A model generated the notes under the pieces. That model worked only from the letters and a program-made list of their open reading frames with translations. It ran no database searches and was not told the origin of the DNA. Below, in pieces: positions 8,422-31,246 of a stretch of 55,114 bases of DNA. Within the stretch, counting starts at the first letter, position 1, and each line of letters begins with the position of its first letter. Source of the stretch: Roseateles sp. (GTDB lineage Bacteria > Pseudomonadota > Gammaproteobacteria > Burkholderiales > Burkholderiaceae_C); the NCBI RefSeq assembly GCF_019237615.1, contig NZ_JAFAGT010000101.1:1-55114 (forward strand), written 5' to 3'. A program made the translations under genes and the position numbers.

Positions 8422-9093
8422 ATGCGCATTCTGATTGCCGAAGACGATCAAGTGCTGGCCGACGGGCTGCTGCGGGCGCTGCGCGCCTCGGGCTACGCGG
8501 TGGACCGCGTGGCCACGGGCAGCGAGGCCGACACGGCGTTGGCGACGCACGAGTTCGACCTGGTCATCCTCGACCTGGGACTGCCGCGCCTGCACGGGCT
8601 GGAGGTGCTGCGCAAGCTGCGCGCGCGCGGCTCGACGATGCCGGTGCTGATCCTGACGGCGGCCGACAGCGTGGAGCAGCGCGTCAAGGGGCTGGACCTG
8701 GGTGCCGACGACTACATGGCCAAGCCGTTCTCGCTGCAGGAGCTGGAGGCGCGCGTGCGCGCGCTGACGCGGCGCGGCCTGGGCACGGCCAGCAGCATCA
8801 TCAAGCATGGGCCGCTGAGCTTCGACGCGACCGGCCGCGTGGCCTATATCAACGAGCAGATGCTGGAGCTGTCGGCGCGCGAGCTGTCGCTGCTGGAGGT
8901 GCTGCTGCAGCGCGCCGGCCGCCTGGTCAGCAAGGACCAGCTCGTCGAGCGCCTGTGCGAATGGGGCGAAGAGGTCTCGAACAACGCCATCGAGGTCTAC
9001 ATCCACCGGCTGCGCAAGAAGATCGAGCAGGGGCCCATCCGAATCGCAACGGTGCGCGGCCTCGGCTACTGCCTCGAGAAGATCGCCTCATGA
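8422..9093 (+). CDS. OmpR-family response regulator
   Basis: A 223-residue two-component regulator. The receiver domain has the acidic pair Glu7-Asp8-Asp9, phospho-acceptor Asp51 in VILDLGLPR, Thr/Ala79-80 and Lys101 in YMAKPF. The C-terminal winged helix ends with IEVYIHRLRKKI and TVRGLGYCL. It is closest in look to the QseB/TctD group. The paired sensor kinase begins 89 bases downstream. The signal is not evident; the TctDE relatives respond to tricarboxylates. Confidence 0.95.
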   Translation: MRILIAEDDQVLADGLLRALRASGYAVDRVATGSEADTALATHEFDLVILDLGLPRLHGLEVLRKLRARGSTMPVLILTAADSVEQRVKGLDLGADDYMAKPFSLQELEARVRALTRRGLGTASSIIKHGPLSFDATGRVAYINEQMLELSARELSLLEVLLQRAGRLVSKDQLVERLCEWGEEVSNNAIEVYIHRLRKKIEQGPIRIATVRGLGYCLEKIAS

Positions 9094-9182
9094 TGAGGCG
9101 CTTTGCTGGCCGGGGACGGCCGTCGCCCCTCCGCGAGGGTCGGGCCCGGCCTGGGAGCGGCCCGGCGCCGCGGCCGGCGTAG

Positions 9183-10703
9183 ATGCCCACCCGGGACGGC
9201 GCCAGCCCGCAGCAGGGCTCGCTGTTCGGCGAGATCCTCGACTGGATGCTCGCCCCGCTGCTGCTGATCTGGCCGATCAGCGTCGCGCTGACCTGGCTGG
9301 TGGCGCAGGGCATCGCCAGCCGCCCCTATGACCGCGAGCTGGGCGAGATGGCGCGCAGCCTGGGGCAGCAGGTGGCGGCCGCGGCGCCGGCAAACACCGG
9401 CAAGGGCAAGGATCGCTACGCGCTTGCGCCCGAGGCAGCAGCGCTGCTGCGGGCCGACGCGTCGGACACGGTCTTCTATCAGGTGCTGGGCCTGCGCGGC
9501 GAGCTGCTCAGCGGCGATGCGACGCTGCCCGTGCCCGCCGAGGAAGCGTCCATCGTGCCCTGGGAGCTGCAATTCCGCGACGACGAGGTGGGGTCGGATG
9601 CGGTGCGCGTGGCCTACCTGTGGGTGGCGCCGGAAGGCCAGGCCGTGGGCGCCAAGACGATGCTGGTGCAGGTCGCCGAGACCATGGGCAAGCGGGCGCG
9701 GTTGACGAACGAGATCATCAAGGGCGTCATCCTGCCGCAGTTCGTCATCCTGCCGCTGGCGGTGCTGCTGGTGTGGCTGGCGCTGGCGCGTGGCATCTCG
9801 CCGCTCAACGAGCTGCAGCGGCGCATCCGTTCGCGCGAGAGCTCGGACCTGTCGCCCATCGACGAGCAGCGCGTGCCCGACGAGGTGGCGCCGCTGGTGC
9901 GCGCGATCAACGACCTGCTGGCGCGGCTGGATTCGTCCATGAGCCGGCAGAAGCACTTCCTCGCCGACGCCGCCCACCAGCTGAAGACGCCGCTGGCGGG
10001 CCTGCGCACCCAGGCCGAGCTGATCCAGCGCGAGATCGACGTGGGCCGCGCCTCGCCGGAGGAGCTGAAGCGCTCGCTGGCGCAGATCGCCCGCGCCAGC
10101 GAGCGGGCGGCGCACATGGTCAACCAGCTGCTCGCGATGGCGCGCGCAGAGGACGTCGAGCAGGCGCTGCGCCGTGAGCCCGTCAACCTGGCCGAGATCG
10201 CCATCGACACGGTGCGCGACTTCGTCCCGCGTGCGCTGGAGCGCCGCATCGACCTCGGCTACGACGGCGTCGTGCCGGACGACAGCCGGCTGTGCGTGCG
10301 CGGCCAGCCGGTGCTGCTGGGCGAGCTGATCCGCAACCTGGTCGACAACGCGCTGCTCTACACGCCGGCCGGCGGGCTGGTGACGGTGCGCGTCGTCGAG
10401 GACCCCTTCGGCCAGGTCGTCGTGCTGCAGGTCGAGGACAGTGGGCCGGGCATCGCGCCGGGCGAGCGCGAGAAGGTCTTCCAGCCCTTCTACCGCTCGC
10501 TGGGCAGCGGCGTCGAGGGCTCGGGCCTGGGTCTGGCCATCGTGAAGGAGATCGTGCAGCAGCACGAGGCCGAGATGGCGCTGGACGACGCCCGCGTGCG
10601 CCGGGCGGCGGGTGGTGAGTCGCCCGACGGGCAGGGGCCGGGGGCTCGCTTCACGATCCGCTTCCCGGCCCTGTCCCGGCTTAGGTCTTCACCACCTTCT
10701 TGA
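9183..10703 (+). CDS. TctE-like sensor histidine kinase
   Basis: A 506-residue inner-membrane kinase. The first membrane helix (residues about 24-44) belongs to a 2CSK_N-type N-terminal region, the second is at about 183-203, with a periplasmic sensor loop of about 135 residues between them. Next come a HAMP-like linker, the H-box FLADAAHQLKTPL with His265, the N-box NLVDNALLYTP, and G-boxes VEDSGPGIA and GSGLGLAIVKE. An in-frame stop directly precedes the ATG at 9183. The gene ends inside the 3' end of rodA (convergent overlap of 23 bases), so the last ten residues may be non-essential. Confidence 0.93.
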   Translation: MPTRDGASPQQGSLFGEILDWMLAPLLLIWPISVALTWLVAQGIASRPYDRELGEMARSLGQQVAAAAPANTGKGKDRYALAPEAAALLRADASDTVFYQVLGLRGELLSGDATLPVPAEEASIVPWELQFRDDEVGSDAVRVAYLWVAPEGQAVGAKTMLVQVAETMGKRARLTNEIIKGVILPQFVILPLAVLLVWLALARGISPLNELQRRIRSRESSDLSPIDEQRVPDEVAPLVRAINDLLARLDSSMSRQKHFLADAAHQLKTPLAGLRTQAELIQREIDVGRASPEELKRSLAQIARASERAAHMVNQLLAMARAEDVEQALRREPVNLAEIAIDTVRDFVPRALERRIDLGYDGVVPDDSRLCVRGQPVLLGELIRNLVDNALLYTPAGGLVTVRVVEDPFGQVVVLQVEDSGPGIAPGEREKVFQPFYRSLGSGVEGSGLGLAIVKEIVQQHEAEMALDDARVRRAAGGESPDGQGPGARFTIRFPALSRLRSSPPS

Positions 10704-25051: not shown

Positions 25052-25855
25052 ATGCGATTCGGAGCGCGCGCCGAACTCGCCGCCGCCAGGCGGAGCGACA
25101 TCCTTGTCGGCCTTTGCCAGGGCGGCCTCATCGCGGCGCTGGCACTGGCCCTGCTCTATCTGGTCTTCGGCGACCGGTTCAGGCTCCGGCCCGTGCCGGC
25201 GCCCGCCGCCCCTGCGGCCCTGGCGGTGCCGCGGCCCGTCATCGAGCGCCGCCTGGACTTCGGCAAGCTCCGCGCCCCCGGCGACGTGGGCCGCGTCGCG
25301 GCCTGGGCCGTGCGCGAGTCCGACAACGGCGACTCGCCCTTCGCCATCGTCGACAAGCGCCGCGCCCGGGTCTACGTCTTCGCGGCGGGCGGCCGCCTGC
25401 TCGGCACCAGCCCGGTGCTGCTGGGCTATGCGGCCGGAGACCTGTCGGTCGCGGGCATAGGCCAGAAGGCCATCGAGGACATCAAGCCTCATGAACGCAC
25501 GACGCCGGCCGGCCGCTTCGTGTCGGAACCGGGCCGCAATGCGCTGGGTCAGGAGGTCGTCTGGGTCGACTACGGCGCGGCGGTGTCCATGCACCGCGTG
25601 CGCGCCACCAACCCCAAGGAGCGCCGCCTGGAGCGCCTGGCCTCGAAGACGGTGGCCGACAAACGCATCAGCTGGGGCTGCATCAACGTGCCGGTGGACT
25701 TCTTCGACCACACCGTCTGGCCCCAGTTCGGCCGCGGCCGCGCGGTCGTCTACGTGCTGCCGGAGAGCAGCCCGCTGAGCGCCTTCTTCCCCGCCGCCGC
25801 GCCGCCGCTGCTGGCCCAGGCCGGGGCGCGCCAAGGTAACAGCGCCGGACCGTGA
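25052..25855 (+). CDS. L,D-transpeptidase-like (YkuD) protein, membrane-anchored
   Basis: A 267-residue protein with one N-terminal membrane helix (about 18-38) and a periplasmic YkuD-like catalytic domain. Landmarks are FAIVDKRRARVYVF, TTPAGRF, and the active-site region with His181 and Cys210. The usual SHGC-N signature reads S-W-G-C-I-N here: Ser and Cys are kept and the His is Trp. It may still crosslink or anchor at the wall, but activity is not certain. A paralogue follows directly at 25976. Confidence 0.78.
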   Translation: MRFGARAELAAARRSDILVGLCQGGLIAALALALLYLVFGDRFRLRPVPAPAAPAALAVPRPVIERRLDFGKLRAPGDVGRVAAWAVRESDNGDSPFAIVDKRRARVYVFAAGGRLLGTSPVLLGYAAGDLSVAGIGQKAIEDIKPHERTTPAGRFVSEPGRNALGQEVVWVDYGAAVSMHRVRATNPKERRLERLASKTVADKRISWGCINVPVDFFDHTVWPQFGRGRAVVYVLPESSPLSAFFPAAAPPLLAQAGARQGNSAGP

Positions 25856-25975
25856 ATTCCTGGCCTGCCGGCTACAGGTCCCTGTTCCTAGACTGCCGCG
25901 CGGGTCTGGCGCGATGGTCGCGCCGCCCGGGACAAGGGGCGTCGAGTGGGCGGCAATCGGGCAGATCGGGTCGGG

Positions 25976-26527
25976 ATGTGCGGCATCGTCGCCGCGTTGG
26001 GCCTGCTGGGCGCGGCCGACGCATGGGCCGAGGCCCGGCCGGTGGCGGCTGATGGCAGGGACGAGCGCCCCTTCGCCATCGTCGACAAGCGCGAGGCCAC
26101 GCTGTCCGTCTACGCCGCCGACGGCCGCCTCGTCGGCCGCGCGCCGGCCCTGCTCGGGCTGACGCCGGGCGACGCCGAACTGCCCGGCTCGCGCGGCAAG
26201 GCGCCGTCGGCGCTGAGGCTCGACGAGCGCGTGACGCCGTCCGGCCGCTTCGAGGCCCGGCCGGGTCGCAACCTGGACGGCGAGCGCATCGTCTGGTTCG
26301 ACTACGAGGCCCACCTCGCCATCCACCGGCTGCGCCCGGCGCCGGCCGGCCAGCGCCGGCCCCAGCGCCTGGCCTCGGCCAACCTGCAGGACCGCCGCAT
26401 CACGCTGGGCTGCGTCGTCGTCGACCCGGCCTTCTTCGACCGCGTCGTGCTGCCGACGCTGGGTGCGGGCCCCAGCCTCGTCTACGTCCTGCCCGAGCGC
26501 GCGCCCCTCGTCGCCGCGGCGCCCTGA
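25976..26527 (+). CDS. L,D-transpeptidase-like (YkuD) protein, secreted paralogue
   Basis: A 183-residue exported relative of the preceding gene. A signal peptide is at residues 1-18 (cut after AWA); the ATG at 25976 is preferred to an upstream GTG at 25946 because it gives a clean signal peptide. It shares FAIVDKREATLSVY, TPSGRFEARPGRN and IVWFDYEAHLAIHRLRP with its neighbour. The active site has His117 and Cys146, but the signature reads T-L-G-C-V-V-V, losing both the His and the Asn. Tandem duplication followed by divergence is the simplest reading. Confidence 0.75.
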   Translation: MCGIVAALGLLGAADAWAEARPVAADGRDERPFAIVDKREATLSVYAADGRLVGRAPALLGLTPGDAELPGSRGKAPSALRLDERVTPSGRFEARPGRNLDGERIVWFDYEAHLAIHRLRPAPAGQRRPQRLASANLQDRRITLGCVVVDPAFFDRVVLPTLGAGPSLVYVLPERAPLVAAAP

Positions 26528-28217: not shown

Positions 28218-28294
28218 ACTGCACGCACTTTTCTTGTGCCCCAGGCCGCTTTCGGGCCAATGCCAGTCAGTTAAGCCCGAGAGCCGCTGACGTT

Positions 28295-28327
28295 AAAAAG
28301 GGAACGTGTTGGACACGTTCCCTTTTT
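28295..28327 (+). terminator. Perfect hairpin with T run
   Basis: AAAAAGGGAACGTGT (28295-28309), loop TGG, ACACGTTCCCTTTTT (28313-28327): a 15-base perfect stem with A and T tracts at its ends. It can terminate transcription in both directions. It lies within the IS4 remnant upstream of its transposase, where such elements often block read-through from outside, and also ends the peptide transporter transcript. Confidence 0.85.
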
Positions 28328-28845
28328 GCTTTGAGACTGCTCCAGAGTGCCCTTGATGAGACCCTGCAACATGCACCGCCCGATGCCTATGCGCAGTTGG
28401 CGAGATTGATCGACCGGGAGTGGATCGAGCAGGCGCTTGGCGCCAGCGGCAAGGCCAGCATCCGGCGCCGCAAGTTGCCCGCCGAGCATGCGGTCTGGCT
28501 CGTGATCGGGCTGTCGCTGTACCGGCAACTGCCGATGTGGCTGGTGGTGCAGCCGTTGTCGTTGAGCCTGGACGACAAGTCACTGCCCGCACCCAGCGCC
28601 AGCGTGCAAGCTCGCCAGCGCCTGGGCTGCGAGCTCCTTGCAGGAGCTGTTCGGGTTGCTCATGCAGGGCTGGAGCCGTCCGAGCGTGACACCCGAGCTG
28701 CGCGTTCTGGCGGTTGACGGCGTGGTCTGGTTGGCACCCGACACGCCCGAGAACCGCTCGGAGCTGGGTAGCTGCGCCACCCAGCACGGGCCATTGCCCT
28801 GGCCGCAGGTGCGCGCGGTTTGCCTGTGGACACCCCAGCAGTTCC
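28328..28845 (+). pseudogene. IS4-family transposase, truncated and frameshifted
   Basis: The first frame encodes an IS4-type N-terminal domain ([48 protein letters not shown]). Around 28620-28640 the frame shifts, and the next frame reads [35 protein letters not shown] with the first DDE aspartate, and WPQVRAVCL. A further slip appears near 28833, and the rest of the gene is gone. No start codon is evident in frame. It is a dead fragment. Confidence 0.75.
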
Positions 28846-29041
28846 ACGCCGCGCCATGCGTCTTTTTCAGGCGCTGCCAGCTCTCGGGCTGTGTGGTCTC
28901 CACCCAGGCCAGCAGGTCGGGCATGAACAGGCCGTCGGCGCGGTCGAACAACGCCGCATCGCCTTCGGCGTGCAGCCAGTCGTGGGCGACCAGGTGGCCG
29001 CAGATTTCGGTCTCGAAATGGTGTTCCCGGTGCAGGTTCAT
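28846..29041 (-). pseudogene. hsdR: Type I restriction enzyme R subunit (hsdR), N-terminal fragment
   Basis: The first about 65 residues of an HsdR: MNLHREHHFETEICGHL, HAEGDAALFDRADGLFMPDLL, AWVETTQPESWQRLKKTHGA (shown in pieces). This matches the typical start of type I restriction R subunits, including the TQPE-W-RL-K pattern. After HGAA the frame runs into inverted IS4 sequence and the remaining 900 or so codons (nuclease and helicase) are absent. The ATG overlaps the stop of the nucleotidyltransferase gene as ATGA (29038-29041), so these genes were once one operon. No hsdM or hsdS is in the window. Confidence 0.72.
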
Positions 29042-29738
29042 CGGCTCAGGGCTTTCAGGCGTTCCAAGATGAGGCCGGCGCGTTCCGGCTCGGCTATCAG
29101 GCCCGGCAGCACATTGGCGAAGTCCGGGTTCTTCAGCAGTTGGGCAAAGGCAGCGGCCACCGCTTGTCGCAACTCGGCGGGGGCGGCTTCCATCTCATCG
29201 GCCAGTTCCTCGCGCCCGTCGACGATGTTCAGCACGTCTTCGAGGTCATGGCTCGTCACGAAGTCGCCACCACCACGGCTGGCGAAGGCTTCGAGCTTGG
29301 TCGCCACGAAGGCGACGGTGCTCACCAGCCGAATCGCCACGCCCGCCCCTAAGTCCACGGATACGGCGGTGTCCACCGCATAGGGATACCAGCGGTTCGT
29401 AAAGCCCAACAACTCAGGCTGCACCGGCATCAAGTCGAAGAGCACGCCGAAGCTTTGTGCACCCAGCGGCAAATCACATCGCTGCTGACGTCGCGCGCAA
29501 ACCCGCGCGCCGCCACGGCTTCCTCGATGCGATGGAACAAGGCGCGGCTGGCATTCACCACCGCGTCCACATCGCGGGTGGCGCGCACCGGGTCGGCCAG
29601 CGGGTCGGTGACGAGCAGGCCGGCCACGGCGCCGCCGACAAACACCACCTGTTCGCGCAGGTCGCCCAGGGCCTCGGCGATGCTGCGCAGATAGGGCAGG
29701 TTCGGGTCATCAGCGCGCATCGGCAGCTCCGGCGTCAA
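29038..29738 (-). pseudogene. AbiEii/AbiGii-type nucleotidyltransferase, frameshifted
   Basis: Two overlapping frames together make one nucleotidyltransferase of about 225 residues. The 5' part (start 29738, or ATG at 29720) has LREQVVFVGGAVAGLLVTDP and TRDVDAVV, the G-G-x(n)-D-x-D type active site, and reads to WVHK. The 3' part, from about 29460 in another frame, continues GVLFDLMPVQPELLGF, WYPYAVDTA, FVATKLEAFASRG and LEDVLNIVDGR. The break is a single-base slip near 29455-29465. Such proteins are the toxin half of type IV-like systems. It may be a real mutation or a sequencing error. Confidence 0.72.
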
Positions 29739-30255
29739 AGCGCATCAACTCGGCTTCCATCAGCTTCGCGGCCAGCGTCCGCTCGCGTGCCCGCCCGATG
29801 CGCAAGGCATCCAGCAGGGCCAGCAAGCGATGCAGGGCCGGGTCGGCCAGTGCGGCCTGCGGTGCGGTCCGATATAGAGGCGAGAGCGTAGGCCCCTTGG
29901 CGCTGCCGGTGGGGTGGGCCCACACGGGCGCCTCCCCGGCTGCCACCGTCATCTGACTGGCCAGCGGCTCAGCACCGAACGACGTCGGCACGCCGCGCTT
30001 GACTGGCCCCGGTGTGGCCGGCCAGATGTAGCGCACGCCGTGCAGGATGAACTCCAGCAGGTTGGGCCTGACCGGCGACCATTCGCCGCGAGCTGGCGCC
30101 AAGGCCAGGCCGGAGGCCACCGCACGCTTCACGCTGGCGTGGGCCTCCGAAGCGCTCATGGCCAGGGCTTCGCCCAGCGCGGCATAGGTCCAGCGCTGCG
30201 GTGGATGCGCAGCCACCTTCAGCAGCACCAGCAGGTCTTGAGGTTTGAGGTACAT
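29710..30255 (-). CDS. Winged-helix DNA-binding protein, partner of nucleotidyltransferase
   Basis: A 181-residue protein. The first 75 residues look like a MarR/winged-helix domain (LKPQDLLVLLKVAAHPPQ, WTYAALGEALAMSASEAHASVKRAV), followed by a segment (RYIWPATPGPVKRGVPTSF) and a C-terminal helical part. It overlaps the nucleotidyltransferase start, as in AbiEi-AbiEii type pairs where the winged-helix protein is the antitoxin and autorepressor. An AT-rich dyad lies 18 bases before its ATG. The pairing supports a type IV-like module; the antitoxin role is inferred. Confidence 0.6.
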   Translation of the reverse strand: MYLKPQDLLVLLKVAAHPPQRWTYAALGEALAMSASEAHASVKRAVASGLALAPARGEWSPVRPNLLEFILHGVRYIWPATPGPVKRGVPTSFGAEPLASQMTVAAGEAPVWAHPTGSAKGPTLSPLYRTAPQAALADPALHRLLALLDALRIGRARERTLAAKLMEAELMRFDAGAADAR

Positions 30256-30866
30256 CGAGCTTGATATTTGCTATTCGCGAATTGCGAATGTCGCCGATGG
30301 CGCTTGTTTGGGCAAGACGAAGTTCGCAGCGCCGCGCTTCCAAACGGGCGGCTACATCTTCTTGGCCGCGCCGCCAGGGCAGTGAACGGTTCGTTGATGG
30401 ACGCCTGCAGCCGGCCCACACCAACGTACATTTCACCGGGCGCCGGTGAGAATTGCTTGCCTCCCCCATACTTCTCCTCGCCATAGCGAAACGCCATCGA
30501 GCCTGGGGCGAGCGCAGCAAGCTCGTTCAGCCGTGCCGTAATCCAGCCCGGCACTTCCTGCTGATATTTCTCACGGACAAGGGTCTTCAGGTCAGCACCC
30601 CGCGCATCCAGCCTGTGGTGGGTGCTACCGTTTCGCAACAGCGCCTTCAGCGCCAGTTCCAGCGCATGTCGATACAAGAACAGCACGGGACTGGCGAGGC
30701 GGAAGTCCTCCTGCTCCTGGCGCTTGATGGCCTCGGCAAGAAACTTGGCCGCGTGCAGATACTGCTCGGCCATCTCCAGCGTGGTTGGAATGAACTCCCC
30801 GCCGACTACAAATCCGTGCGGTCCCGACGAAGCATCCTCCCGTTGATGCTCTTCGGAATGCTCCAC
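30219..30866 (-). CDS. HEPN-like protein (C-terminus uncertain)
   Basis: The core runs GEFIPTTLEMAEQYLHAAKFL, FRLASPVLFLYRHALELALKALLRNG, a helical pattern typical of HEPN domains. RNGSTH gives an R-x4-H spacing like the HEPN RNase motif. A GTG at 30866 is the most sensible start; the frame also opens at 30941. From about residue 165 the sequence becomes Arg/Ser/Cys-rich and reads through the dyad into the next gene, so the true C-terminus is probably lost by a frameshift or missing stop. Lower GC than the core genome. Possible RNase toxin; not demonstrated. Confidence 0.5.
   Translation of the reverse strand: MEHSEEHQREDASSGPHGFVVGGEFIPTTLEMAEQYLHAAKFLAEAIKRQEQEDFRLASPVLFLYRHALELALKALLRNGSTHHRLDARGADLKTLVREKYQQEVPGWITARLNELAALAPGSMAFRYGEEKYGGGKQFSPAPGEMYVGVGRLQASINEPFTALAARPRRCSRPFGSAALRTSSCPNKRHRRHSQFANSKYQARCTSNLKTCWCC
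30273..30289 (-). promoter_or_regulatory. Operator-like dyad before the winged-helix gene
   Basis: ATTCGCGAATTGCGAAT contains the perfect 10-base palindrome ATTCGCGAAT and a further GCGAAT copy 7 bases on. It lies in a short A/T-rich patch directly upstream (minus strand) of the winged-helix start at 30255. Position and symmetry suit an autoregulatory binding site. Binding is inferred only. Confidence 0.45.
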
Positions 30867-31246
30867 GAAGAGAGGCGCATGGCGCTCTCGACAAACGGCG
30901 AGACGCCAACCGACTGGCCAAACGAGACCTGAACTACCCACGCCGACTTTGAAAACCGGCTCTGCAGGGCCAAGATGCGGTCCTTGTTCCCCATGCCGAC
31001 AACGCGCTCAGTCAGCTCCGCAACAACCTTGCGCCAAAGAGCCGCCGCAAAGATGGCGTCCGTGGTGAAGTAGAAGCGGGCAAACGCAGAGGCAAGGCGG
31101 GCGAAGCGGCGCCCAGGCCTGGCTTGGACGAACTGGTCCGGAACCAAGTGTTCGTCGAACACTCGGTTCATGTCCCGGTCGGACAGCTCCGCGATGTAGG
31201 CGGCTTCTGCGCTTGGAACGAAAACGGTGGGAGGCATGGCAAACAT
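30806..31246 (-). pseudogene. Probable DUF433-type antitoxin, N-terminal half only
   Basis: A 146-residue frame. The start (FVPSAEAAYIAELSDRDMNRV, LVPDQFV, RRFARLASAFARFYF) looks like the MerR-like DNA-binding N-terminus found in front of DUF433 antitoxin domains. Homology-like sequence continues to VSPFVESAMR, after which the frame turns to WSIPKSINGRMLRRDR and stops inside the HEPN-like gene. The C-terminal DUF433 part is absent, so I read it as truncated at a junction near 30870. The family assignment rests on memory of similar proteins. Confidence 0.42.

Follow-up and report, generated by a model that had tools for sequence, protein, structure and literature searches.

Does a toxin-antitoxin (TA)-like gene pair that lies inside a type I restriction operon serve restriction, or is it a module of its own? 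This question is raised by a 55,114-nt contig of Roseateles sp. (NZ_JAFAGT010000101.1), the whole of which we call the window. On its minus strand lie, in order, a HEPN-like fragment, a promoter/operator, a winged-helix (WH) gene, a nucleotidyltransferase (NTase) gene and the start of hsdR. A sequence-only reading had described the last three as genes linked by overlaps, as a type IV-like module built into a type I operon, and as a possible guard that senses loss of restriction. Based on the anatomy and decay of the locus, its conservation, a portable operator/promoter sequence, the NTase fold and invariant residues of homologues, and recurrent embedding in restriction operons, we conclude with a probability of about 0.68 that the window preserves what is left of a self-contained, autorepressed TA-like pair, which often lives alone and entered type I operons several times, here at the hsdS/hsdR junction. 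The operon has since decayed.

The window contains the relic of a restriction operon

The locus comprises the following features.

29710..30255, minus strand: WH, a winged-helix (MarR/LexA-like) protein of 181 aa (PADLOC PDC-M21A), likely an autorepressor/antitoxin
29038..29720, minus strand: NTase of AbiEii/MenT fold (PDC-M21B in homologues), broken, in two frames
28851..29041, minus strand: 5' fragment of hsdR, ~63 codons, the remainder lost; its start shares ATGA with the NTase stop
30266..30289, minus strand: tripartite palindromic operator ATTCGCAATTCGCGAATAGCAAAT, predicted at the sequence level
30287..30315, minus strand: promoter-like elements, -35 TTGCCC (30310-30315), 17-bp spacer and -10 GACATT (30287-30292), the -10 overlapping the first operator arm; positions conserved
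30372..30884, minus strand: damaged HEPN-like gene, 81% identity over 170 aa to L078:8808-9446; Pfam HEPN match below cut-off
28253..28839, plus strand: IS4-type transposase remnant abutting the truncated hsdR, with 72-74% DNA matches in its own genome and IS4-annotated plasmid matches
28851..30882, minus strand: whole homologous block from HEPN to hsdR start, colinear with Paucibacter locus L078 (8840-10874), 80.35% over 2,041 bp

The overlaps are present as first read: the WH stop overlaps the NTase start by 11 nt (NTase ATG at 29720), and the ATGA at 29038-29041 is common to the NTase stop and the hsdR ATG. The operator-like dyad noted before WH is likewise there, and a search of the 4.8-Mb genome that allowed up to 3 mismatches found its core (30266-30289) nowhere else. 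The hsdR fragment is genuine, as it matches HsdR of the Mitsuaria plasmid (P0003) and of Paucibacter L078. However, the description of genes linked by overlaps applies to a relic, because, as the sequence-only reading missed, the NTase is frameshifted, hsdR is cut, the HEPN-like gene is damaged and the genome yields no hsdM or hsdS matches. A net -1 frameshift near 29445-29454 divides the NTase into two ORFs (29430-29738 and 29038-29472), and a genome search with the NTase query returned this copy as two pieces (query 1-92 and 90-227). DNA homology of the hsdR fragment to L078 ends at 28851, ~63 codons in, and the 5' homology of the HEPN-like gene ends at 30882, beyond which its reading frame continues. 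ORF 30806-31246, in which a Pfam scan gave no match, overlaps the 5' end of the HEPN-like fragment, lies mostly outside the homologous block and marks the other edge of the relic.

Searching the window's own genome (4.80 Mb in 108 contigs, 99.1% complete) for hsdM and hsdS domains returned 0 N6_Mtase and 0 Methylase_S matches, and a single HSDR_N match was below cut-off. The type I restriction-modification (RM) gene set of hsdM, hsdS and hsdR, which is complete in relatives such as L008 and L078, is represented in the window by those hsdR codons only. Taken together, the window is a decayed relic of a gene pair inside a restriction operon, and its NTase and hsdR cannot work in their present form. 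A second decayed WH-like fragment (265 bp, 79% identity) lies on contig C92 of the same genome (L004:1501-1765).

Relatives occupy three positions in type I operons

Relatives, some of them on short contigs, were found by profiles built from the Mitsuaria plasmid-type proteins. On the Mitsuaria sp. 7 plasmid (L008), hsdM, hsdS, WH, NTase and hsdR form one run, in which both the WH/NTase and the NTase/hsdR junctions overlap. The order hsdS-(X)-WH-NTase-hsdR, of which the window is the right end, was found in 12 loci (L008, L044, L049, L076, L078, L079, L080, L083, L087, L091, L092, L094) from several genera, and hsdM is also present in nine (not L076, L079 or L094). In 11 of the 12, hsdR is like that of the Mitsuaria plasmid; the hsd operon of L049 is more divergent and has an extra gene before hsdR. 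Not all of these loci are intact, however: in L044, another decayed copy, a deletion fuses the NTase 5' part to the hsdR interior (8980-9877), and in L076 the NTase is in pieces. The gene between hsdS and WH in L044 was considered as a counterpart of the window's HEPN-like gene and rejected, as it has no similarity.

The NTase/hsdR ATGA occurs in seven of the 12 loci inspected for this junction, the window included (the others being L008, L080, L083, L087, L091 and L092), which indicates that this overlap is more than one accident of a single sequence. In L078 the hsdR start has two in-frame ATG candidates (ATGA or TGATG), in L094 a spacer of 28 nt separates the two genes, and the junctions of L044, L076 and L079 are broken or unclear. 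In six further loci (L096, L097, L098, L101, L102, L103), the pair precedes hsdM-S-R in the same orientation, and the ORF ends place it immediately next to hsd genes in L098 and L102. In seven others (L046, L047, L050, L053, L062, L108, L115), it lies between hsdS and hsdM. In L065, hsdM follows the NTase near a contig end.

The pair resembles PDC-M21 and type IV TA systems

WH and NTase match PDC-M21A (1e-39 to 1e-42) and PDC-M21B (1e-61 to 1e-65), in the same order as in this PADLOC-DB candidate defence system of WH (A), NTase (B) and PP2C phosphatase (C). The pair here differs from PDC-M21 in having no PP2C gene, which was found neither in L008 (by annotation) nor in the hsd-embedded loci (by profile). 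Matches to the PP2C profile are confined to L010, L064, L067 and L069, in which PP2C follows WH-NTase; these four loci form a separate clade (SH-aLRT 97), and L010, the one of them that was scanned, scores far higher against PDC-M21 (1e-82, 1e-104). MenT toxins can be shut by auto-phosphorylation, according to the available text of PMC11375011, and we speculate by analogy that the phosphatase might therefore reactivate the NTase. None of the papers searched names PDC-M21, and among the matches listed by our literature searches we saw none on this WH-NTase pair; an earlier description of its embedding (Payne et al., 2024 preprint, cited in PMC12255303 and named in the conclusion of PMC11411939) is possible.

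The NTase has the fold of AbiEii/MenT toxins. Residues G30, R46, T48, D50, D52, D96, K142, R149, D159 and D162 are invariant in 42 aligned NTase sequences, and the homologues contain what we take to be the catalytic motif residues of these enzymes (GG...DxD, third D, K, D); the window copy is frameshifted. Pfam AbiEii scores are borderline (P0002, 22.2 against a cut-off of 22.5 bits; P0007, 25.6; window fragment, 12.3). A winged helix-turn-helix (wHTH) was found in the WH protein, and the Foldseek and VIA lists for the WH model held no AbiEi row, an absence that excludes nothing. The locus shares with AbiE/MenAT the NTase fold and catalytic residues, an upstream wHTH gene and an inverted-repeat operator. 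Unlike in those systems, WH is not recognised as AbiEi, and its operator is a compact 24-bp tripartite palindrome, whereas the available text of PMC7319586 gives the AbiEi operator as two 23-bp inverted repeats.

A portable promoter and operator precede the pair

The palindrome upstream of WH has the consensus ATTCGCtATTCGCGAATaGCGAAT. Allowing up to 6 mismatches, it was found in 75 of 112 WH upstream regions (these include one masked sequence, L094, and one region with a wrong anchor, L104) and in none of 1,998 control windows from the same loci. Subclades without the consensus half-site retain the operator layout with ATTCCA, ATATGC, TTTCGC or ATTCTC, and with these included the layout is present in 96 of 110 regions (masked L094 left out). 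Because half-sites differ between subclades while the symmetry stays, they may co-evolve with the WH recognition helix. ATTCCA occurs in L096, L097, L101 and L103, and ATATGC in L113, L117 and L122. A symmetry-and-repeat score alone reached at least 13 in 90 of 110 regions vs 32 of 2,206 controls, some of which may include operator parts.

In homologues, a -10 element (TATATT) overlaps the first operator arm. In 45 of 90 aligned regions, a TTG is found 26 bases upstream of where the operator begins, compared with 6 regions or fewer for every other offset that was tried; its distance from the -10 equals the 17-bp spacing typical of sigma-70-like promoters. These elements are shared by free pairs (L041, L058, L059) and by pairs embedded in hsd operons (L008, L044, L050, L053). 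Since the conserved operator precedes WH, the pair probably has a regulated promoter of its own, and an inverted-repeat operator at the own promoter, as in type IV AbiE, is present in the sequence.

Across 18 hsd-linked loci, no site other than that before WH comes within 6 mismatches. At 7 mismatches, L050 has a second site, 30 bp upstream of its main operator, and L096 has one inside hsdS; a few sites in other places have 8 mismatches. A second WH site before hsdM in the hsdS/hsdR loci was ruled out, as none was found within 6 mismatches.

Most sampled pairs are found without hsd genes

We searched 399 Burkholderiales genomes with the NTase query P0002, which found matches in 35. The pair lies inside an hsd operon in eight of these (G268, G323, G189, G340, G316, G132, G145 and the window relic, G000); hsdM is directly downstream at a contig end in one (G190), an hsd gene or fragment is nearby in four (G028, G002, G213, G324), and a PP2C gene is present instead in three (G098, G235, G262). 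The other 19 have no hsd gene in the fetched stretch, several being fragments or short contigs; in one of them (G206), an hsd operon lies ~10 kb upstream. In nine of the 35 (G213, G268, G316, G145, G323, G340, G189, G132, G028), the NTase has an HSDR_N match no more than 12 kb away, vs 0.35 expected by chance (p about 5e-11, from a rough binomial on 52 HSDR_N matches in about 126 Mb that ignores defence-island clustering). Co-location with hsdR therefore exceeds chance, in keeping with the association first proposed, and free pairs nonetheless outnumber embedded ones in this sample.

The search was extended to contigs, of which the best 80 of 581 confirmed stretches were taken in (five of these repeat loci named above). 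Nine plasmid loci were opened: hsd genes are present in L008 and L009, and PP2C in L010; the other six, from five phyla and picked from the upper part of the match lists, lack any annotated hsd gene over 7 kb around the pair. A recombinase or integrase lies near the pair in four of these six, and in L187 a PP2C gene is also encoded on the opposite strand, some 5 kb off. Carriage by phages was rejected, as no match was found in 50,697 phage records (P0002, tblastn at 1e-5), and eight neighbouring ORFs of seven free pairs revealed no common partner. Specificity of the pair for hsdR was rejected on these tallies, so that the picture of a module built into type I operons holds for the shared gene order (11 loci plus L049) and not for most sampled relatives.

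These counts bear on the proposed guard, in which an intact restriction complex would hold the NTase inactive until phage inhibition or restriction loss releases it. A precedent is PrrC in EcoprrI, as outlined in the available text of PMC12707154: it too is an RNA-targeting effector encoded within a type I operon, although it is an anticodon nuclease with a known tie to inhibition of the restriction enzyme and not an NTase pair. The recurrent co-directional embedding, the co-location above chance and the recurring ATGA are also consistent with a guard. However, the pair is mostly found without hsdR (19 of 35 genomes and six of nine plasmid loci without hsd genes), and the free and embedded pairs have the same promoter/operator. 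Furthermore, an HsdR relative (E 1e-100 or better) was found in 45 of the 399 genomes, and 41 of the 45 have no NTase match, which together with the free pairs argues against an obligate guard of HsdR. The counts also go much of the way towards the outcome that the sequence-only reading had named as refuting it, a majority of relatives without hsdR. No datum here requires a guard tie, and we regard one as improbable. In the remaining four (G069, G190, G206, G322), the NTase is on another contig or at least 10 kb away.

The hsdS/hsdR junction holds many cargoes

We fetched 20 stretches from 19 of the HsdR genomes, mostly those at the top of the match list. WH/NTase appeared in L168 only, at a distance of about 10 kb from hsdR. 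In seven of the 20, hsdR is directly preceded by a type II TA-like pair or a PIN gene: Phd plus a YafQ-like gene in L166, L168 and L175, Phd/YefM-like plus PIN in L169, L177 and L180, and PIN in L173. (Matches to Phd, YefM and YafQ fall short of the Pfam cut-offs and scanned PIN matches exceed them; L168, the L169 antitoxin, L180 and the fragments in L165 were judged by eye.) Other occupants are GmrSD in L171, GIY-YIG/DUF4357 in L172, DUF4357 plus an unknown ORF in L174, GmrSD- and M05A-like fragments in L165, and unknown genes in L167, L170, L176, L179 and L181. No slot ORF of 60 codons was found in L164 or L183, and L178 ends at the contig end. In L182, a relative of the window's HEPN-like gene (40% identity; 9660-10253) is the sole occupant, which suggests that the HEPN-like gene may be independent cargo. 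Where WH-NTase stands next to hsdR, further cargo can lie upstream of it (GmrSD and HEPN in L078, PDC-S18 and PDC-M05A in L091, PDC-S14 in L094).

Comparable nesting is known. In the RRDM island, DarTG2 lies between hsdS and hsdR, which the available text of PMC12255303 calls a 'potential recombination hotspot'; as here, a TA pair is embedded at the junction, but the toxin differs, and RptR works at the island promoter whereas the operator here lies inside the operon before WH. TgvAB, a GmrSD-like system in a type I RM operon of V. cholerae (PMC11411939, as far as its available text goes), likewise has defence genes nested in a type I operon, and GmrSD-type genes also occupy the slot here (L078, L171); unlike the pair, it is a type IV restriction system and not TA-like.

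From these contents, the hsdS/hsdR junction looks like a TA slot. A stronger version, in which it would be a dedicated slot where unrelated autorepressed pairs (WH-NTase, Phd-YafQ-like, YefM-PIN and, by literature, DarTG2) are tied physically and translationally to hsdR, as a conditional promoter or a PrrC-like guard, seems to us fairly unlikely. TA pairs are a class known for autorepression. In another reading, the autorepressed WH promoter would serve as a conditional promoter of hsdR apart from hsdMS, with restriction rising when WH is consumed or degraded and the NTase being secondary. The ATGA link, the operator placed before WH and not before hsdM in the scanned junction loci, and the TA-like nature of other occupants fit such a role. 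However, a separate promoter is not needed in L164 and L183, where hsdR is presumably read with hsdS because the slot has no ORF, and in the hsdS/hsdM or upstream placements the same cassette precedes hsdM instead. We therefore consider this role improbable as well.

The pair was probably nested repeatedly

A quick tree of WH plus NTase, with long branches, covered 104 loci; L044 and L076 were left out for their short NTase pieces. The state with or without hsd genes changes at least 16 times over 68 labelled rows, each change being a gain or a loss. Counted on starred branches, the minimum is three changes for the hsdS/hsdR placement, five for hsdS/hsdM and two for the upstream placement. The hsdS/hsdR label is more clustered than in shuffles (8 changes vs a mean of 10.7), and in an hsdR tree, six hsdRs with the pair at the junction group with three (L164-L166) that lack it. 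From intact copies elsewhere, the pair seems to be a module of its own that was repeatedly nested in restriction operons.

Repeated gain or loss and the many unrelated cargoes in one slot would also be expected if the pair were a passenger, which merely shares defence islands or recombination hot spots with hsd genes and overlaps its neighbours as a by-product of tight packing. The consistent strand and the exact stop/start overlap with hsdR in several genera count against this, and we consider it unlikely, though it deserves serious attention.

Around the relic lie a POT-type transporter gene and efflux genes (labelled by eye). Further off, ORFs 25052-25855 and 25946-26527 resemble tandem paralogues with FAIVDKR mid-protein in both, possibly L,D-transpeptidase-like, also by eye.

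A working model and its significance

For the self-contained, autorepressed pair that we favour, we propose that WH would bind the operator and repress its own promoter, would probably neutralise the NTase and, upon failing, would leave the NTase free to arrest growth, probably by tRNA modification. tRNA is the likeliest target by analogy to MenT (PMC10435456; PMC11375011). At the hsdS/hsdR junction, hsdR could be read from both the upstream hsd promoter and the WH-controlled promoter, because the latter lies inside the operon and hsdR overlaps the NTase by 4 bp, which leaves no room for a promoter of its own. Since hsdR follows the NTase without a gap, it is possible that the pair was made in step with hsdR, as the sequence-only reading held.

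These findings provide a concrete anatomy, consisting of a portable promoter, an operator, WH and NTase, for an uncharacterised candidate defence family. NTase pairs that occur alone, with a phosphatase and in three restriction-operon arrangements furthermore constitute a natural experiment on whether TA modules guard, regulate or ride on restriction.
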